From: Phorcus lineatus
Taxonomy: Eukaryota > Mollusca > Gastropoda > Trochida > Trochidae
Direction of reading: 5' to 3'
NCBI GenBank assembly: GCA_921293015.1
Contig: OV121096.1
Location: 9,117,000 to 9,180,999 of the forward strand
DNA length: 64,000 bases
Shown one piece after another: positions 1,842-47,855 of this stretch (position 1 is the first letter of the stretch; each line of letters starts with the position of its first letter). The notes under the pieces were generated by a model. The model saw nothing but the letters and a program-made list of their open reading frames with translations. It had not been told where the DNA came from and ran no database searches. The position numbers and the translations under genes were made by a program.

Positions 1842-4800
1842 ACGGACGGCAAAGCGGATGATCGGAAAAACGAAGAAGCTGACATCGTTTACTTCACTGA
1901 TAGGGGAGGCAACTCTCTCAAACTACAACAGTTTAATGGCAGGTATTATCTCCCCTTTGCAAGGCCAGCCGATTTGAAAGGCATCCGCAGCCTCGAGATG
2001 AGACAAGATGATATATTGCTGGTTACATATGCCCGAACAGGTAATAATTATGTTTTGATGAGGCAGGTGTTACCTCCCTTTAAAAATAAACTAGAAAACT
2101 AGAGTTATTCCTCTTTGCAACCTTGCGTTATGGATAATAGGAGATAAATGATTATGATAGTAGCTTTATATGTTTAGATAGTGGATTTCGAATATCCTCA
2201 TTCATACTTAAATGAAACGAAATATTTGGATTTGAAAAAAATGTGTCATTTTATGGTTTCAAATTAGCAAATATTGCACCTAGAGGACCGTCGCATGGGA
2301 AGCAGGCCGGTTTCTGTAATATGATATACTTCATCGGGTAAAAATCACTATATTTTCTTCACATTTTGCGTATTGCAGGAACGCACTGGCTGTTCGAGAT
2401 GATATCTATGTTGATGAGTGGGAAGGCAGAAACTGTCCAAAAGTCCAAAATCAAGCACCAGCTAGAGCTGGCTACCGCAAGTGACCTCTCTGACCTTCCC
2501 TCGCCACGTGTCCTCAATACTCACGTTGGCTTTCCCGAGCTGCCGACTCAGCTGGTCGAGAAGAAGGTCAAGGTCATCTACTCCTTCCGGTAAGTAACCA
2601 TGGTAACCAAACCTGACCGTAACTTCGTTTACGGTTAATTTAACGTCTATTTGAATGCCATATCTGGTCGAAGTTGAGCGTTTCCCTACCAATAAGGGAA
2701 AAGGAGATTATGCCAGTTCATGTAACTCGAGTATTCATGAGGGTAAAAAGTAAATCAACGCCCGTTTCTGACATTGTTATTTTTCTGGGACAGTTTCAAA
2801 GAAGATCAAACCAAGAATCAAACTAGATCAATGATTGAGAGACATGATATTTGATAATTAATTTCCTTAATTTAAATATTATATTGTAACCATAGATATA
2901 CTGGATAATAGATACATGAGTAACGCGTATTATGATGTTGCAGGGACCCTAAGGACGTGGCCGTGTCTTTGTACAACTGCTACCTGGGCTACCCGACCAT
3001 CTGGGAGTACAGCGGACACTTCAAGGACTTCCTCTACCTCTTTCTCGAGGGCAAAGGTGGGAGCATTTCCAAAGGCAGTTTATAAGAGAATACTAACCTT
3101 GTGTAAAGGAATATAGTTCGTTAAGCAAGAAGATTGCATATATTTCATATAGATTTTAAAATGTCTCTTTTATTGCGCCAATAAAAACAAATATTTACGA
3201 TGATTCACCGATATTGTCATGCGGCTTATGAGTTAATTGGGATCCTGTACCATTAATGTCCACACCCAAGATGATCACAGAAATGTTCAATAGGATTCAT
3301 ATTCAGCGACCAAGCTGAGCATGATAGTATCATAAAACGTTTCTAATTGTCAACAAACTGTTATTGGCAATGTCTTGAATCATCATATTTGAATATCACA
3401 TTATTTGCTGCGTCTTTAGGGATTTAGCAACATCAGGTTTTATGTTGACAGTCCTATCGGTGTATTTGCATGTCAATGAATGGGGCCATTCCTATTAAAC
3501 ATATGTACTATGAATACAGAATACACGAATACATCCAAATACAGTTAAAACACGTCACTGGTGGCTTGGTTGTTATATTTTGATTCGACAGCTTGATGAA
3601 GAAAATCACCTTTCTTCGATGCTACGATTATGTGGTATTTTAATAATTCAATATTTGCAAATTTGTGGACATTTTATAAATGTATGTATTTGGACAAAAC
3701 TTAGTTGTGAATTGGCAAAAATACAATCGTGAAGAAAAGGAGGTCACCGTGAAAGTCGCTTTCTCTTCCCACAGGGGTAGCTCAGTCATAAATTCTTATG
3801 TTAACCTCTGATCTAATACGAGCTCTTCTCGGGATTCCTGTAGGGTTCCTCCAGCGGTAAAATATCGCTAAACAAACTATCTGCAAAATTTCAGCATATG
3901 GAAACATCGCATGCATTGATATCATTTTAGTTGTTACCGAGGCAGTTGAATGACTGTGTCTGTAAAGGAGACAGACAGAAGTGCACATTCGAATGAAGTT
4001 TACCTTTCCCGAAGCATACTATTATAACTGAGGCTTTTCGAATGGTAACTTTCAGCGTCGCTGATTGCACAACTAACTTCCATTGCATCCTATCAGGCTT
4101 CTTCATATCTAGACCGAGAAACGCTTGTATTGGGACAGAAGTTAGTATAGGGGTGTATGAAGGAGCTACCCCTGTTGAGAAAGAAGATTATAGAACTGTT
4201 CCTTTAAGAGTATCGATGTAGGGAATATCTCTTAAGAGACAAACGAATATAAATGAATTGTAAGTTCAATATTTGATTCAAACCCCAATAATAATTATTA
4301 TCATTAAAATATTCATTTCCTTGTAGTTGACGGTAACGGTGTGTTTCTACATTACCGAGACACGGAAAGGTTCATGGACGAGAACCCGGATGTCCCGTTC
4401 CATATAAAAACATATGAGAGTATGTCCGAGGTAGGTCATAAACAAAGTTTTAGGAAATCAAAGGTTTTTTTTCCCAAACGATAAAAATGTCTAACAAAAA
4501 TACACTTTGCATGGACTTAACTATGTTGACTATTATGAATATGATTTATATAACCTACATATTTCAAGTTCATTTAGATGAACGTTTGTTAGAAATTAAT
4601 ACCATTTATACTGAAAGTGAACTTATGTAACATTGTTGAATTATGGATTAAATTACCTGTAATTTAACAAGTACTTGTACTTTAACCTTTATGTGGTTGG
4701 TACAGACATTCGTTATTGCCGGATGCTGACACTCATACGTGAAATTCCTACTTGTGTTTTGCATAATTATAAATGTATCAATTTAACAATTATGAATTGT

Positions 4801-5905
4801 GTTTCAATGTTTCCTAAAAGCCCATTTCACTATCACTAATTGTTGTAACTTTCCTTTTTTATAGTGATAGGCACAAGTCTAACCAAAAGATTTTGTTCAT
4901 AATACTTCAACCTTAAATTTACACTAAAACATTAACCTTAACCTCTTGAAAAGCAAATCTAGATTGGGAATCAACAAGTGAAAATTTAGTGGTCCCTTAC
5001 TAGATTTGATGAAATATTTTATTCAAGCCTTTAGTGATAGTTTAGGTCAATACCGCAGTGCATCTGCTTTAAAGTTTAAGTTGTTTTGACTCTGAAAAGT
5101 TCCTATGTAAAATCATTTTTGTTGAACTCTGAAAAGTTCCTATGTAAAATCATTTTTGTTTAACTCTGTAAGAGTTCCTATGTAAAATCATTTTTGTTTA
5201 ACTCTGAAAAGTTCCTATGTAAAATCATTTTTGTTTAACTCTGAAAAGTTCCTATGTAAAATCATTTTTGTTTAACTCTGAAAAGTTCCTATGTAAAATC
5301 ATTTTTGTTTATCTCTGTAAGAGTTCCTATATGTAAAATCATTTTTTTTTAACTCTGTAAGAGTTCCTATGTAAAATCATTTTTGTTTAACTCTGTAAGA
5401 GTTCCTATGTAAAATCATTTTTGTTTAACTCTGTAAGAGTTCCTATGTAAAATCATTTTTGAACTCTGTAAGAGTTCCTATGTAAAATCATTTTTGTCAT
5501 TTTTTAATTCGTTTACATTTTTTTACGAAAGTCGTTATAGTTAAAACCTTCGGATAATTTTTTTAAAAAAAGGGAACATTTTTTTCACTACACAACTTCA
5601 CTATACAAGGAATAGATAAATGGTATGTCTGAAACGATTTCGTCGTTTTTCAGAAGAGGCATTGGGCCAAAAAGAAACATCTTATTTTCTTATATCTGCA
5701 ATAAACGTTCATTACAATATATTTGCGGCAAATCTTCGGTCGAAGAAGAAAACTTTGGTTACAATTATGATATATGTTTTGTCCTTTACAAAATGATATT
5801 CGAAATGACATTTTTATGAGATAGTAATTTATATTGCATTCTTGAACCTAGTGTTGAATAAAACCCAGCCACAGGGGCGTAGGAACAGGGGGGGCGGGGG
5901 GGTGA

Positions 5906-5946
<41 letters not shown>

Positions 5947-7522
5947 CTGGGGCCCCCACTTTTTTTAAGCCCCCCCCCCCCCCCCACACTTTCTTTTTAA
6001 GCCCCCCCCCCCCACTTTTTTTTTCGAAATGTTTTTTTCAAATTGATTATTTTCCCCTTTTTTACTACATATTTCCCAATAACTGGTCTAGTATTGTTAC
6101 AAAACAGTTACTATGCACTACTTTGAGGGTAGTTTCTAAAACTACTCTGAGCGTAGAACTAAAAAATCCAATCATCCTAATTGACGATAAGATGGGGTAA
6201 GCAGTAAGTGTCCTTTTTTTTTTTTTTTTTTTTTTTTGGTTACAAAATTTCAATCCAAGCCCCCCCCCCCACTTTCAAATTCGCTCCTACGCCCCTGAGC
6301 CAGATATGCTGCTGCAGTATTATGGGAATCATCTTTAAGTATGTGATAGGAATATGACTTTTCTTCATCTTCGAAAAATGTTAACCTTTATTTGCAGGAT
6401 GGCTGAAAAAAAGTCGACCTTTATACATAATATTTGGACTTATTTCAAAATTAATAAAACAATTTTTTTAGCAGCTGTACGCATATCATTGGTTAAAACA
6501 TTCCTATAAGGGTGACAAAGAGAAGCGGAGGCGAGTAGCTTCAAACCTACCACGGTATTGACATGTCCCTATGTCACCCTTGACGGAATGTTATAACAAA
6601 TTTATTTTACTGAATGTTTTAATCGACAAATATAGAAACTGAGATGTACCAAAACCTCTTGGTGAGTATAACCACTGGTTCAATGGTTAGACACGCTCAC
6701 TATTCCTGCTTATTTCTTCGAGGGGTAAAAATAATTATCACCCAATCAAGAGGGTGGTATCAGTAGTTACCCATGTTCACGTTGACCAATCAGCGATCGG
6801 TAGGATGAGGTAGGATAAACGTCTTTTGATGCTACATGTATAACTGAGCTCTACGACCCGCCATGCATTATTTGTCTCCAGAACAGGCTGCTGGAGGTTC
6901 AGAAACTATCGGACTTCCTTGGTCTGGAGAGAAACGATAAGCTGTGTCAGGAAGTGGCCGACAAGTGTGAGTTCAATCGGATGAAAAAGGACAAGTCTGA
7001 CTACACCGTCAAGTTTGATGACCGGAATCCTCTCTACAGAAAAGGTATTTTTCTGCCATAAGAATTTAAACCATAAGAATTGAAGACTTGTTAATAGATA
7101 TACTCTCAGACAATAATTTATTCAAGTTATTTAAAGAATTCGGAAAAAGCATAATAACATTTACGTTATTACACAAAAGCTAAGCATTCTATGTTTTATA
7201 TGTAAATGACGAGTGCTCACGGTCGCGTCGTACATGCCTTCATTTCTCAATACGTACATCATTACTTCACTGGAAGCACTATGGTATCAGCTATTTCAAA
7301 TCAGAATCAGTTTGTCCACCTCCTTGTCCATGTTGCTATTGTTTAACATTAACAGTCTATTAGTTTTTAAATCTATTTTAAAAATTAAAATCCGTAGGTA
7401 TAGTAGGTGACTGGAGGAACTACTTCACAGGGGAGATGCTGGAGGACTACTACCGTGTCTATGAGGAGAAGATGGCGGGGTCAAGGTTTTATAATCTGTA
7501 TTCAAGGGACAAATGTCAATAA
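1842..7522 (+). CDS. Cytosolic sulfotransferase (SULT family), six exons, start exon missing
   Basis: Transfers sulfate from PAPS to a small acceptor in the cytosol; the acceptor cannot be read from sequence. Coding exons: 1842-2040, 2379-2589, 2944-3056, 4327-4430, 6882-7044, 7398-7522. All junctions are GT-AG, phases agree, and they total 915 nt (304 residues plus TAA). Visible motifs: the PAPS 5'-phosphosulfate loop VTYARTGTHW (exon 1/2 junction), the catalytic-base motif RVLNTHVGFPELP, the 3'-phosphate motif YSFRDPKDVAVSLYN across exons 2/3, and the C-terminal RKG..GDWRNYFT motif across exons 5/6. The length is typical of the family (about 290-300). The frame is closed by TAG at 1839-1841, which doubles as the splice acceptor, so the start ATG must lie in an upstream exon. 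Intron 4 carries a minisatellite and a hAT-like element. AATAAA signals lie at 7518 (overlapping the stop) and 7808; the latter is the likelier site. Confidence 0.9.
3771..4175. mobile_element. MITE, family with ACAGGGGTAGCTC ends (copy A)
   Basis: Lies in sulfotransferase intron 3. The left end ACAGGGGTAGCTCAGTCAT is inverted at the right as ATGAAGGAGCTACCCCTGT, and similarity continues about 50 bp inward through CTTCTGTCCCAATAC-type sequence. The interior shares a stretch ending in TTGTTACCGAGGC with the copies at 15128-15549 and 28810-28980. No coding capacity. A target-site duplication is not clear. Confidence 0.65.
5089..5499 (+). repeat. 37-bp minisatellite, about 11 copies, two variants
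   Basis: Tandem array in sulfotransferase intron 4. Each unit holds TCCTATGTAAAATCATTTTT preceded by either CTCTGAAAAGT (variant A) or CTCTGTAAGAGT (variant B). Reading left to right the order is A A B A A A B B B B B. Copies are almost identical, so the array is young or homogenised. Confidence 0.95.
5888..6028. repeat. Homopolymer tracts: long poly-G then poly-C
   Basis: A nearly uninterrupted G run around 5908-5946 is followed by C runs around 5981-5995 and 6003-6013. Length is likely unreliable in any assembly. The G run could form G-quadruplexes on the + strand, and the G and C runs could pair as a hairpin. Confidence 0.9.
6213..6237 (+). repeat. Poly-T tract
   Basis: Uninterrupted T run of about 25 bases inside the transposon at 5872-6297. 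Confidence 0.85.
6492..6597. repeat. Short inverted repeat (fold-back element)
   Basis: The left arm with AACATTCC..AAGGGTGACA is inverted at the right as TGTCACCCTTGACGGAATGT. Arms are about 25 bp with a few mismatches around a spacer of about 55 bp. Probably a tiny MITE in sulfotransferase intron 4. Confidence 0.5.
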
Positions 7523-8847: not shown

Positions 8848-11811
8848 TCACCCTCTGTGTACCAGCATAACCAGAAGGAACATAGCACAGTTGAGTATCA
8901 TCATCACAGCCGGCGCCCCGCACCCTGCAAAATAATGAAATCATCGTATACTGACTGCATCATTACTTAAATATCCTACCACATTCTCTCAAAAAAGTTT
9001 TAACTCAAAAATTTTCTTTCCACATTCGATCACCAAAATGCAACGCATAATTTATCTTACCACATTCTGTCACAAAAGCGGTAACCCAATACATATCTTT
9101 CTGCATTTCTTAACAAATGAGATAATTCAAAACTAATATTTCCATAGCCGTTCACAAAGTAGGCGACTCAAAATTCATCTCCTCACATTCTTCCACAAAA
9201 GAGGAAATCAGTTTTTATCTTTCCACATTCACAAAAATGCTGGTTACCCAAAACTTTCCATATTCGTTCACAAAAATACAACTCAAAATGTATCTTCACA
9301 TATTCTTTCATAAAAGAGATTACGCAAAATGTATCTCTACACATTCGTTGACAATGGAAACAACTAAAAATTCCCCTCCCCACATTTATTCACAGAAGCG
9401 CTAATCCAGTTCATATCTCTCAACATTCTACCACAAAAGAGATTGCGGAACATTTATCTTCTTTCATAAATGTAGTTACGAAAGATTTATCTCCTCAAAT
9501 TCTTCCAAAGACTGGTTACAAGAACCACATTCCAAATTTCCACGTTCGTACACACAAACGTAACTCAAAATTTATCTTCCCATTTTATTTCATAAAACAG
9601 GTTACTCAAAATTAATATTCCCACATTCTCTTAACAGAGGTTACTCAAGACAAATTCCCATGTCTCCCAAAAAGGGACGCTCAAAATCGATCTTTCCACT
9701 TTCTATAACTGCAGAGATAACTCAAAATTCATCTTTCACATTCTTTCATAAAAACAGTTATGGAACATTTATCTTCCCACATCCGTTCAAGCGAATACGA
9801 TTTCCAAGATTTTCTTCAAAGACGTTTCTAACGTCAAATCCTCTTCCGAAAACATTACGTCCAATATCATCATTATATAATATCATTATTCTGTTAAGAG
9901 CCAGTGGTTTGGTATCTGCCGAGCGAAAGCGAGTAAGCTACCGATACCATCTACGATTTTTTTTTCAAGTAGTATAAAATTTACGGAAACCTGTTGGGTA
10001 TTGTTTATTCAGTATCTTTTCCTTTCTGGATAATCTATCAAATAAAAAAAACGTGAATAACGTTGCCTCTCTGTTTGTTCCGTTTTACTCACCGCTGTGG
10101 TGTGTGGTTGATTCCACGTGCCCGCCGCCACCTGCGGCCGCTGTCGTCTCGCCGTTAACCTGGGTACCAGCGAGGATGAGGACAACTGCGTAGATAGGAA
10201 GGAAGATATATCAATGATCATGTACGCGAAAGAATGCTTTGAGGGTCATTTAGAAGTTGTTTGGATGAATGATTTCTATTCATTTTGGTATTGACAGTGG
10301 TGTTATTACCTCAACCGAAGCATGGTGTAATGAAGGAAGTAAGATTTTATAAAACTAGTTTTCATTTCAATGAATGACTTATAGATAACAAATATTACCT
10401 ATATATGTTTAATAAACATAATAGTAAATGCATGAGTTATGAATAATTTAATGAATTATTTATTTAGGTACAAAGAAGATTTTGTGAACAACAATGCCTA
10501 ATGTTAAAATTCACGTTTCGGAGTATATGCTTATTCCTTCATCAGGTGGGATGTAGGGAATATGATAAGGGATACATATAAACCATTGAAAAGAAACATG
10601 AAACCATTGAAACGTTAACACAGTCGGAAGTTAAGTTGGTTTGTATGTACGCGTTGCAATCAAAGTGAGGCTGAAAAAGACACTCCTTAATTTTCATGAT
10701 AATTTATTGGCTTTAGTAAGTGTCAAAATGTTAATTCTTTTATTCATTCATTAAAAATTACTACATGACAAGTATTAATTTTCATTAAAAATAGTAAACA
10801 CCTGTATAAATGTGCCAAAGCTTAAACACATTACAATGTACATTGATGCTATTTGCATAATATTAAGATAATTTCAAGTCATTTTTTTTCTCTTTGCTGC
10901 TTTAGATAAGTTTTCAAAATGCCTTGACTTATAGGCGCGCGCCATTACCTTTTTAATCAAAACAGCATCTTTCTACATTTATATCGTAACTCTACTATTC
11001 GATACAAGGATGTTTATCGTTATTTAAATGTCAGTATTTCTCGATAGAATGACACCATCAGTAAAATTTGGCAAATCTTACTCAAGGAATGTCTCTTTAA
11101 AACACAAATATGCATTAAAACAACAACATCAGAAACAAAACCTGAGCATACTGTTGCTACTAATTCAGAGACCACAACGTTATACCAACTGATAACCGCA
11201 ATTCAAAAAGAATATCTTGTTCGAAATTAAATAAATTTCTCTAAACTTTATAAAAATTGAATAATTATGAAATTATATTTAAACTTTACGGCTTCGGGAG
11301 AAGTAAAAAACTGCAGTTTACCATTTGTGCCGTGCTTATTTCTAATCCTTTTTTACATGTTGTACAAACATGGTTCTCACATTGTGCCGATATTAGTGAA
11401 AGTCGTGTGCCTCCGATGTATATATTCGTCCTTTTTTCAGATGTTTTTTTGAAAAAAAAGTTAATTTTGACTAATTCTGGAAACTAATAACGATCAACAA
11501 TGCCCCGTTCTTCTTCAGCGAGGCTTTCCACACTAGTAGCGGCGGTGAATGACTTCTCTTTTTGTTTGCTATTTTTGTTTTGTCATTGATATGCGTCATT
11601 CTTTGTAAACTTAATAAACCTCTAAGCAACCGATAAATTATCCTAAAGTGTTTAGCTCATTTTGTTAAAATCATTTTTTATAACATAGATGGGAAAACCA
11701 AAATCTCCCCTCAACTTTTGTTTCGATAAAAAATACCCAGATAGAATTATAGAATTCATAAATAGTTTTACTGTACTCACCAGCACTGAAAAGTAAACAG
11801 GCAGTCTTCAT
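8848..11811 (-). CDS. Small secreted/anchored peptide (66 aa, signal peptide plus hydrophobic C-tail), three exons
   Basis: Not recognised as a known family. Coding exons on the minus strand: 11811-11781, 10185-10093, 8924-8848. All splice sites are standard (two GTGAGT donors, acceptors CTACGCAG and TTTTGCAG), phases agree, and the total is 201 nt (66 residues plus TGA). Residues 1 to about 22 form a classic signal peptide starting MKTACLLFSAVV. Residues 23-41 are a short polar stretch with ETTAAAGGGGHVESTTHHS. Residues 42-47 (GCGAPA) are small residues suited to a GPI omega site, and residues 48-63 are strongly hydrophobic, ending in VHRG and TGA. This layout is that of minimal GPI-anchored glycopeptides (CD52-like in general form) or a tiny membrane protein. 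The second exon is GC-rich, unlike its surroundings. A TATA box lies 60 bp upstream of the ATG. Alternative: a chance assembly of three open segments, made less likely by matching phase, splice quality and coherent topology. Confidence 0.62.
8970..9805. repeat. Degenerate minisatellite, about 45-bp unit, about 18 copies
   Basis: Fills much of intron 2 of the small peptide gene. The recurring core reads roughly CCACATTC..TCACAAAA then GTTACTCAAAATTTATCTT. Units differ strongly from one another, indicating an old array. Reading frames across it are an effect of the repeat, not genes. Confidence 0.85.
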
Positions 11812-11870
11812 GTTGGTTCGAATTCGTCTCCAGAAATCTCCAGAAGAAATGTTGTCGTCAGGCCAAACGA

Positions 11871-11881: not shown

Positions 11882-13151
11882 CACTGATGTTACCATGGAC
11901 TTCACACAAACAAACAAACGAACAAATACTACCTCTTTCATTTTCAAATTATCATCTAAATTAGTTGGGTATTTCTCATATCGGCAATAACACAAAGAAC
12001 AAATGTGTTCCGACTTGACAAATTAAATGTAGATCCGATATGAGGTAAAGGATTGGGTTGAGCGGGTGCAGAATTCAATGTACCGATATTGTTGGAACGC
12101 GTTAGAAATTGGGTTTCAATCTTCTTTAATATTCATGAAAAGATTAGCTTTTCGTCTAATGCAGAGTCAGATTGAAAATTTGATTAAATATAGTGAAAGG
12201 TGGTTTGTATTTTTCCAATGAAAATCTTACCTATACGAATGCATTAAGAAGTGTCAAGAAAACATATATTGGTTTTGGAAAAAAATATCAATATGTAATC
12301 TACATTTGATAAGATGCTCTTTACCTAGTATTATGTTGGAGCGCATTACGAATAAGTTCTTTCTCTCGAATGCTATTGGTTAACTTGAATTAGATTCTGT
12401 TGAATTGAAGCCTTCATAGTTATATAAATCTTTTGAAAACTAGCTATAACCTAGTTCATGACTACATCTAGCTTTAACTATATTTGAATTTGATATTTTA
12501 AACTTGTGACAGAAAATCTATAAATTTTTCTGATAAAAAATAGATGAGAATTTATATTATTTTGATCTTTGGTATTTTGGTATATTTCAAAACTTTCCAT
12601 GCTAGTAACATTGAGTTCATACATTTTCGTTTTTGTTAAAATTCAGTCTGCAAAAGTTTTGCTTCTTGAGCCACGATACCACGAGTTCTCATAGAGGGTA
12701 CGGATATGGTTTGTTTTTTCCAACATAATACCTACATATGCAATATCAAATATAAAACAATTCCAGGGTAGAATGTGATTTTCGCTTACGTTAATTGTCT
12801 CCTTTAAATTATATATTTCATACCGATGATCACAAAATAAAACATGGAAACATGGAAAGCAGATTTTTTTTAACAAACAACGTTCACATATATATGCTAT
12901 GTTCTACACTAAAAATAAGAACAACAGTTGAACAACATTTGTAACGGAGGTTACCTCAGAAATAAAAATTGTTTTCCCAAGTAACATGTTACAAGTGGGG
13001 CATTTTAGGATAGATATTTTTTTGTGGTAAGTTGATGAACTTTCGTCTAAATGTTCAATCAGCGAATTTCTCTCAAACTTACCATTCCGCATTTTCTCGT
13101 AATCTTTATTGAATTCAATTACGAAGCACGGGCATGTTGAAAGATAACGAT
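11882..13151. other. Intergenic AT-rich sequence, nothing recognised
   Basis: Upstream flank of the small peptide gene. I see no exon, RNA gene or clear repeat before the transposon at 13152. Confidence 0.5.
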
Positions 13152-18013: not shown

Positions 18014-21000
18014 TTATTCCTTGGACACTAATGCTGCTGGGAGTATTGTCCGAGGAATTATTCCTATCGCCTGCGACACACGATCAGCCAACCAGACTGG
18101 AAAGAGAGGGTACAAGTTCAACATAATGTCTGCTCCGGTCCCACACGGGTACCGCTCTCTGGGACGCTTCGAGAGAAGTCCACTTCTCATACACCTGATG
18201 ACCGGAGTGAGGTCAGTCGGGTATCGTGACGCGGATCCAAGGATATGAGAATATGTGTTGTTTAAATAGTCCCGTCCGTATGTTTCCCGAGTTTTCTCGT
18301 CAATGGTATCCCAGATCTCTTCCTTTCTGCCTTTTATGACGCTTTCCTGCATATTCCCTGCAATGATACAAAAGTGTGCAAATCTGAATGTATCAGAACA
18401 ATACAATGGCTATGTAACTCAACAGGCTTTGTATGGTTGAAATCTTTACAATGAAGCTATTAATTCAGAAACATATCAAGAAAGATATTTTGTCACTAAC
18501 CAAATTTTAAATATATAACTTTTAACAACAATAACTGATAAATGAAAATGTTTGACAGTGCTCTAATGAACTGCTAGTGCTCAATCAACCACTCAATCAA
18601 AAGACACCATTCGCAAGATACACATGGACTAGACACTCAAATCAAAAATTTTCCCCAAAACCCATTTCTTTTAATCAATAGTATTATGAGGGATTTTTTT
18701 AAACTTGTTTGAAAAAATCACAAACCAGTAAAGAATCCTGTTGGTTCAATGATGGCAACATGGACTTCCCACTTCTTCATCTCCTGACGCAGTGTGTTTG
18801 AGTAAGCAACCAGCGCATGCTTCGACATGCTGTATGCTCCATTTCCTTCCATGGATATCCTTCCTGAAACAACAGAATATACTTTCAAGGTTTCCAAAAT
18901 TTGATTTTATAAAAAAGGTCTTATAAACATTTAATGTGGTCATTGATCTGTCACACATTCACAGTAATCTTATTGCATTCAATATACACAACCACATTGC
19001 AAGACTTTGGTCTAAGTATACAACTTGGCAGTGACTAGTGGGGTCAGATTAACAATAGTTATCATCATAACTGTGAGCAGAGATTAGATAATAATATCCA
19101 AATCGCCTCTATTTCCCTATGTCGTGGCGCTACAGACATGAAATTAACCAAGTAACACGACAGACAAGACCAAAATGAAGACATTAAATATTTGATCGTC
19201 TTTCACAGCTTGTACCACAATAAATTTCACCCCTGTCATGCCCTTATTTTAGGAATTTAACAAAACAAATTCAGAGACATTGGTCTTCATTAGCCTTCTA
19301 GGCCAGATGAGCAAGTGGTAAAAATATCTGAAATATACTATCAAAGAAAATTTATATAGGAGAGGACATTTCTGGAATTGTCAGGGAGGTGGTGAAAGAC
19401 AAATTCTATGAGTGCTCACCTAACAAACTTGACACATTGATAATACGACCCTTGGCTTGTCGGATCAGTGGAAGCACAGACTTAGTGACCTTGACCGCTC
19501 CAAACAGATTGACGTCCATTACTCGACGTAAAACTTTCTCTGACGTCATTTCAAGTTCAGAAAAATACCAAACTCCAGCATTGTTGACAACACCCCATAA
19601 GCCTGTAAACAAACAAAACGTTTATCAACGGACAAATATCAAAATATTGGTTGGACACCATTGGGGTTCCTCCAACGCACACAAGCTAATGCAAGTTTCG
19701 AAGTGGACATAACAATGTTATCTCCTAACAGTAAATAATTGACATTTCTTCCTGAAGAAAAAAATCTAAGTTAATGTAGCTCGAACATACAATTGGTTGA
19801 ATTTGAGGATGACTGTAAGACAATGAATCATTTTCTACTTACCTTCCTCCCCTATTTTTGTCTGTATATATTCAGCCGCAGCATCTATGCTTTTAGAATC
19901 TGTCACATCGAGCTGAATAATTGATACTCTGAAAAAATATGAACACAGTGAATTATTTCGAAAGATGAATATGTCTATCAACATACACATGGGAAAGGTC
20001 TTTGTCAGGTGTGGTATGTTACATGCTGTTATGAGGTCAAAATTAAGCAAATATTGTGGGAACATTGAGTGCTTGGCCCCCATACTTCGCTAGAGTGGCG
20101 AATAATTTCATAATTGATGCAAAACATGCTAATCTAATGTCTAGTGGTACAGCCTTATAACCTGAGAAAAAACTTCTACGATGCAGTATAGGTGATGTTT
20201 TTGTGTTCTTATTTTGAGTAATTAAGACTCTGTTCACATAACGTGTCTTCAGAGTCAATAAATAAAATATTTAGGAGTAAAAACCTGCATGTAATTAGCA
20301 AATTGCCAACTGCTGTGTTTGATTCTCAACTTGACTAATAATTGGGGAAATAGAGTTCTTTTATCATGGGTCCAAAATGTACATAGTGGAGCAGCATTCT
20401 CCACCCTGATCAGACTGATACATGTTGATTTACACAATGTCCATTGCAAGAGTCCCTAAACCTCTTTTATCTTTGACTTCAAACAACAATTAAACCTAAA
20501 ATCACTGAATAGTAACTACCTGTGAAAAAAATCAAGACTTTAATGGGTTAAAAACAATTTAAATTTAAATGCTATTTCACTTTTAAGAAACTCTATTGTA
20601 TAACAGAAGGGAAGAAAGGAAGAAATTCATGTGTTTCATGAAAAGTATTGATAAACTTTTGCATGTAATTATTATATTAATCATACCTCTGGGAACATTT
20701 GTTCCGAAGTTCAACAGAACCTATGCTATAAGTATCCAAACACCCAGCAAATACTCTCATCCCAATACTGTCCAACTTTCGAACCAGAGCATGACCAAAT
20801 CCAGTGTCGCAACCTGAAACATTACACATTTATTAACCATAGCAGCAAAATTTTGTTTCAGGAATGATAGGAAACATTTATTATCCCTTTGGTTGTGAAA
20901 AAGTATACATGTGTACATGATATGATTTCTACCACATTATCAGTGTTTCTGCTGGTATTTTTTACAGCCGACGGCTTTTGAAAATAACGGATATTTACAT

Positions 21001-47310: not shown

Positions 47311-47855
47311 CCTGCTAAAAAGTTGATACACAGACTGTCACATCCTTAATCAGCTGCTTACAATCTGTTGTGTCCTTAATCAACTGCTAACAAGTTGACA
47401 TACAGTCTGTTATGTTCTTAATCAACCACTAACAAGTTGACATACAGTCTGTTATGTTCTTAATCAACTGCTAACAAGTTGACATACAGACTGTCTTGTC
47501 CTTCATCAACTTTAGGCAAGTTTTCTGTCTGTTAAAGCCTAAATAAACTGCTAACCATTTGACATAGAGTCTGTTCTAACCTAAATCAACTACTAACAAG
47601 TTGACATAGAGTCTGTTATAGCCTAAATCAACTGCTAACAAGTTGACATAGAGTCTGTTCTAGCCTAAATCAACTGCTAACAAGTTGACATAGAGTCTGT
47701 TATAGCCTAAATCAACTGCAAACAAGTTGACATAGAGTCTGTTCTAGCCTAAATCAACTGCTAACAAGTTGACATAGAGTCTGTTCTAGCCTAAATCAAC
47801 TGCTAACAAATTGACATAGAGTCTGTTACGGCTTTAATCAACTGCTAACAAGATA
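47311..47855 (+). repeat. 42-bp minisatellite, about 13 copies
   Basis: Unit CTGCTAACAAGTTGACATAG followed by AGTCTGTTCTAGCCTAAATCA. The left units are diverged (TTATGTTCTTAATCAA variants, some shortened) while the right six or so are nearly identical, showing growth from the right side. Confidence 0.95.

Follow-up and report, generated by a model that had tools for sequence, protein, structure and literature searches.

CD52 is a 12-residue GPI-linked peptide that acts mostly as a glycan carrier (PMC7917337; PMC11982460). CD24 is a small, heavily glycosylated GPI-anchored protein. The GPI pattern set out in PMC10491789 has small residues at omega and omega+2, any residue but Pro at omega+1, a hydrophilic spacer of 8–12 residues and 15–20 hydrophobic residues running to the end. 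We analyzed a 64-kb stretch of mollusc DNA (the window) and compared a three-exon model on its minus strand, hereafter the candidate, with these systems. The candidate is best explained as a real, apparently single-copy, TATA-driven mollusc gene for a minimal GPI-anchored surface peptide, a reading to which we assign a probability of about 0.6. As a prediction, the gene model is well supported, and it is of a known general kind (minimal GPI glycopeptide). Gene finders easily miss very small spliced genes.

The candidate begins with an ATG at 11811. Its three segments measure 31, 93 and 77 nt and join in phase into 201 nt including the stop codon (8850–8848), giving the 66-residue product MKTACLLFSAVVLILAGTQVNGETTAAAGGGGHVESTTHHSGCGAPAVMMILNCAMFLLVMLVHRG (Table 1). 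The donors of exons 1 and 2 are both GTGAGT, and the acceptors of both introns are CAG. A sequence-only reading had proposed the three minus-strand segments with their splice sites and a joined frame of 66 codons, and all were recovered with its coordinates exact. That reading had also held the exons to be too short for simple frame scanning; the open frames containing exons 2 and 3 were only 41 and 30 residues long, and such scanning would therefore miss these exons. The TATA box that it had placed 60 bp upstream was likewise present, at 61–68 bp. Most of intron 2 is a decayed array of ~41-bp units (8972–9824), and the repeat fragment in intron 1 (10466–10612) has at least 41 further matches genome-wide, on many contigs and with 74–92% identity.

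Table 1. Positions of the candidate gene, its flanking motifs and neighbouring features in the window.
Feature	Position	Strand	Remarks
TATA box TATAAATA	11879–11872	-	61–68 bp upstream of ATG; read from sequence
Coding exon 1	11811–11781	-	31 nt; includes start codon and beginning of predicted signal peptide; donor GTGAGT
Intron 1	11780–10186	-	1,595 nt, phase 1; contains dispersed-repeat fragment at ~10466–10612
Coding exon 2	10185–10093	-	93 nt; predicted signal peptide end at 10151, predicted mature stub from E23 (10150); donor GTGAGT
Intron 2	10092–8925	-	1,168 nt, phase 1; largely degenerate array of ~41-bp units
Coding exon 3	8924–8848	-	77 nt with stop; GCGAPA small-residue step, hydrophobic tail V48–V63, HRG, stop
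Two ATTAAA hexamers	8555–8550, 8517–8512	-	motif positions; ~300 nt past stop
Sulfotransferase exon	2375–2587	+	above Pfam cut-off
Sulfotransferase exon	2945–3052	+	no Pfam match
Tandem array	5085–5497		11 copies of 37-bp units, 94% matches; located between the 2945–3052 and 6846–7037 sulfotransferase exons
Sulfotransferase exon	6846–7037	+	below Pfam cut-off
Sulfotransferase exon, putative	7406–7474	+	placed by eye
Short-chain dehydrogenase gene	21612–18014	-	Pfam adh_short at 18733–18855; upstream of candidate, same strand
Rhodopsin-type GPCR	36759–35413	-	single open frame, 448 residues
Tandem array	47374–47852		42-bp units, 11.5 copies, 85% matches

The promoter and 3' motifs lie outside the score used in the model scans described below. 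The motif TATAAATA was found 50–90 bp upstream in 0.32% of 11,546 sampled ATGs, and TATAAA in 3.4%. A CA step has its A at 11850, 29 bp downstream of the first T of the TATA box, and transcription likely starts near this position. The two ATTAAA hexamers past the stop codon likely function as polyadenylation signals.

The precursor is laid out as MKTACLLFSAVVLILAGTQVNG / ETTAAAGGGGHVESTTHHS / GCGAPA / VMMILNCAMFLLVMLVHRG. The hydrophobic core of its signal peptide spans residues 4–16 (11-residue mean up to 3.1), and the -3,-1 rule of signal cleavage predicts a cut after V-N-G22, before E23. The resulting stub would carry Thr or Ser at 24, 25, 36, 37, 38 and 41, and no N-X-S/T sequon occurs anywhere in the precursor. 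No K/R pair, the dibasic processing site looked for in a neuropeptide precursor, was found in it either. Ly6/three-finger proteins have about 8–10 Cys in the mature domain, whereas Cys occurs here only at 5, 43 and 54.

The layout claimed in the sequence-only reading, with a signal peptide at the start, about 20 polar residues, a GCGAPA step and a hydrophobic tail, was read as such, and the stub came to 19–20 residues. The GPI topology attached to it held up in part: a GPI tail is probable and the omega rules agree at S41, but the spacer from that residue is 6 residues long, against 8–12 in PMC10491789. Under the omega residue rule as we coded it from that source, S41-G-C, G42-C-G and S36-T-T all qualified. 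At S41, whose codon (10096–10094, minus strand) lies inside exon 2, the omega, omega+1 and omega+2 positions agree with the pattern if Cys is counted as small, and the tail length agrees as well. Measured against the same range (PMC10491789), the spacer is 5 residues from G42 and 11 from S36; the latter falls within the range, but S36 has Thr at omega+2. The hydrophobic run V48–V63 covers 16 residues and is followed by HRG, and the uncharged run S41–V63 covers 23.

The same gene could instead encode a very short type I membrane protein, with residues ~46–63 crossing the membrane and a three-residue cytosolic HRG. This alternative, which we consider unlikely, would account for the Arg near the C-terminus, for a spacer below the usual GPI length (PMC10491789), and for the lack of charge over the 23 residues of S41–V63. 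However, only about 16 residues are strongly hydrophobic (V48–V63, with N53 among them), almost no cytosolic tail would be left, and a small-residue step precedes the hydrophobic run; all three features are nearer to the GPI pattern (PMC10491789). Our preference for the GPI-anchored form rests on the very small HRG end, the 16-residue hydrophobic run and the small-residue step. Counted against the GPI-anchored reading as a whole were the lack of a paralogue, the neutral codons of exons 1 and 3, the higher codon scores of two antisense frames of exon 3, the scoring plus-strand segment over exon 2, a better-scoring acceptor at 10159, the short spacer after S41 and the HRG ending of the tail.

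The splice sites were scored with approximate general animal weights and were ranked among 29,191 GT and 27,552 AG sites, taken from both strands of the window and of 200 kb more of this genome. On this scale the donor of exon 1 (7.17) fell in the top 0.11% of GT sites and that of exon 2 (6.74) in the top 0.16%; among AG sites, the acceptor of exon 2 (3.39) fell in the top 2.5% and that of exon 3 (5.98) in the top 0.44%. Only 2 of 702 acceptors with a score of 3.3 or more open onto such a hydrophobic tail in phase, and that of exon 3 is presumably one of them.

Codon use was modelled on 2,567 codons from haemocyanin exons and the GPCR of the window. Exon 2 scored +13.5 bits in the predicted frame, whereas its other five frames were negative (several with penalised stops). 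Exon 1 was neutral (-0.4 bits), as was exon 3 (-0.8 bits), where higher scores came from two antisense frames (+3.6, +4.4) and from another sense frame (+0.9); codon use therefore backs exon 2 alone. The case for exon 3 lies in its acceptor and tail, and that for exon 1 in its donor and signal peptide. In a best-segment scan, in which stops need not be crossed, the minus-strand segment over exon 2 reached 19.9 bits, against 13.9 bits for a plus-strand segment at 10112–10207. The plus-strand segment mirrors the GC richness of this stretch or, with lower probability, marks an exon in antisense. The GC content of exon 2 was 64.5%, compared with 31% and 34% in the flanking introns, and was matched in 0.06% of 26,211 sampled 93-bp windows, including those over exon 2 itself.

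The haemocyanin beta-sandwich, a mollusc family, had 16 matches in the genome, in two groups of eight on opposite strands of one contig (C12; 7646582–7661095 and 16557773–16572398, ~9 Mb apart), which indicates a mollusc that carries haemocyanin. The control genomes of this search had no match to the family and none to 7tm_1 either, and therefore give no contrast among animals. The Lymnaea acetylcholine-binding protein, used for calibration, had 56 matches, of which the best showed 41% identity over roughly half of the protein; we take this to mean that the genome is not that of Lymnaea.

We also enumerated the three-exon models whose product starts like a signal peptide, continues with a polar stretch and ends in a hydrophobic one, and compared the candidate with them. 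The scan covered 264 kb of real sequence (528 kb of strands), made up of the window and 20 pieces of 10 kb each from this genome, on both strands. The topology cut-offs, the 1,800-bp intron limit and the thresholds were chosen after the candidate had been seen. At strict thresholds, 14 models on the plus strand of the window and in the 20 pieces (both strands) were reduced to none by the topology filter, and five on the minus strand of the window were reduced to one, the candidate. Over the 528 kb of strands, medium thresholds gave 684 models (19 with the topology, including the candidate), and loose thresholds gave 8,360 (219 with the topology, again including the candidate). In both of these scans no model but the candidate attained its splice score or its combined score (35.5 bits); the runner-up, a model antisense to the GPCR of the window, had a combined score of 23.1 bits. 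Its codon score was reached by 11 models in the loose scan, the candidate among them.

We then applied the medium thresholds to 400 whole-window and 400 150-bp-block dinucleotide shuffles, and these 800 shuffled windows yielded 3,423 topology models. None of the 1,496 models from whole-window shuffles and none of the 1,927 from block shuffles reached the combined or splice score of the candidate, and one block-shuffled model exceeded its codon score. Chance was a poor explanation of the three-exon structure, and the computations establish that structure, its non-chance quality and its topology.

Relatives of the candidate were sought in its own genome and in databases. Protein searches of the genome (958 Mb, E up to 10) returned only exons 2 and 3 of the gene itself, and in DNA searches of the genome exon 1 with the promoter, exon 2, and exon 3 with its 3' flank each found only itself. 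When the whole locus was used as a DNA query, the matches listed (for the best 40 of 610 candidates scored) numbered 42, namely the locus itself and 41 in the intron 1 repeat. These searches suggest that the gene is apparently single-copy in the 958-Mb genome. No Pfam family was above its cut-off, the sole entry up to E 1 being New_glue (PF21827), and the PDB sequence search gave no credible relative, in line with the earlier remark that no named mollusc family is known to fit. Matches in PDB to an HIV envelope chain (E 0.22) and to BotH (3.5) were taken as chance. The window contained no tRNA, and no Rfam family reached its gathering score there. Among the papers listed in the literature searches, judged by titles and the opening lines of abstracts, none describes such a mollusc peptide, and the first 17 residues of the precursor were absent from the papers whose text was searched. 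Judged by the own-genome, Pfam and PDB searches, this is a probable orphan gene.

These searches also bear on the explanation that the locus holds no functional protein gene and that what surrounds the GC-rich stretch arose by chance or is left over from a dead gene. It would fit the finding of no paralogue or homologue in the own-genome, Pfam and PDB searches, the restriction of codon support to exon 2, the post hoc setting of the scan thresholds and the picking of the candidate out of a 64-kb window. Nevertheless we regard it as improbable: the combined score was well above that of every other topology model, 218 from real and 3,423 from shuffled sequence, and the TATA box, which does not enter that score, is present. 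The frame and all four splice sites are intact, which argues against a dead gene.

That the gene is real and its exon model partly wrong, with a first exon at 11941–11894 or 10843–10802 joined to an acceptor at 10159, or with an isoform using a donor at 10132, is very improbable: acceptor 10159 scores 4.2 against 3.4 for 10185 and both first exons join it in frame, and donor 10132 scores 3.0, but models with the alternative first exons have combined scores no higher than 18.0 bits (35.5 for the candidate) and poorer signal peptides, exon 11941–11894 sits upstream of the TATA box, and acceptor 10159 breaks the frame after exon 1 (11811–11781). The 10132 donor by itself may define a possible in-frame isoform in which exon 2 is 39 nt shorter.

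The candidate lies between a sulfotransferase gene and a short-chain dehydrogenase gene and shows no sign of belonging to either. The sulfotransferase gene, on the plus strand, is convergent with it. The first (21612–21244) and last (18406–18014) exons of the dehydrogenase gene were placed by eye, and neither has a Pfam match. The nearest solved kin of the GPCR in the window are neuropeptide receptors, e.g. the neuromedin-U and orexin receptors.

On the GPI-anchored reading, we infer transcription, signal cleavage, GPI attachment, O-glycosylation and display as follows. The three small exons would be spliced into the 66-residue precursor, whose signal peptide would direct it into the ER and be cut off after V-N-G22. 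GPI transamidase would then exchange the hydrophobic tail for the anchor, most likely at S41 (or at G42 or S36). The remaining stub of 19–20 residues, composed of Gly, Ala, Thr, Ser and His, may bear O-glycans on T24, T25, S36, T37 and T38, and on the outer leaflet it would form a small glycan pedestal. As a guess, its role could be that of a surface barrier, or recognition or adhesion through the glycans.

Among known systems, the New_glue family (PF21827) matched residues 1–39 of the candidate with an E of 0.13 and 12.5 bits, far below its cut-off of 31 bits, and the hydrophobic tail lay outside the match. The likeness to CD24 is looser; the candidate has 5–6 possible O-glycan sites and no sequon. 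CD52 carries a large N-linked glycan (PMC7917337), whereas the candidate has no site for one and is therefore not classed as CD52. It is doubtful that a lineage-restricted mollusc orphan has independently reached the CD52 plan, in a Gly/His-rich form with a GPI stub of about 20 residues and O-glycans only. At present the locus stands as one plausible orphan gene and involves no new mechanism. Its likeness to CD52 is one of plan: both are very short, and the candidate is predicted to be GPI-linked. If the gene is expressed, surface peptides of about the size of CD52 exist in molluscs too.
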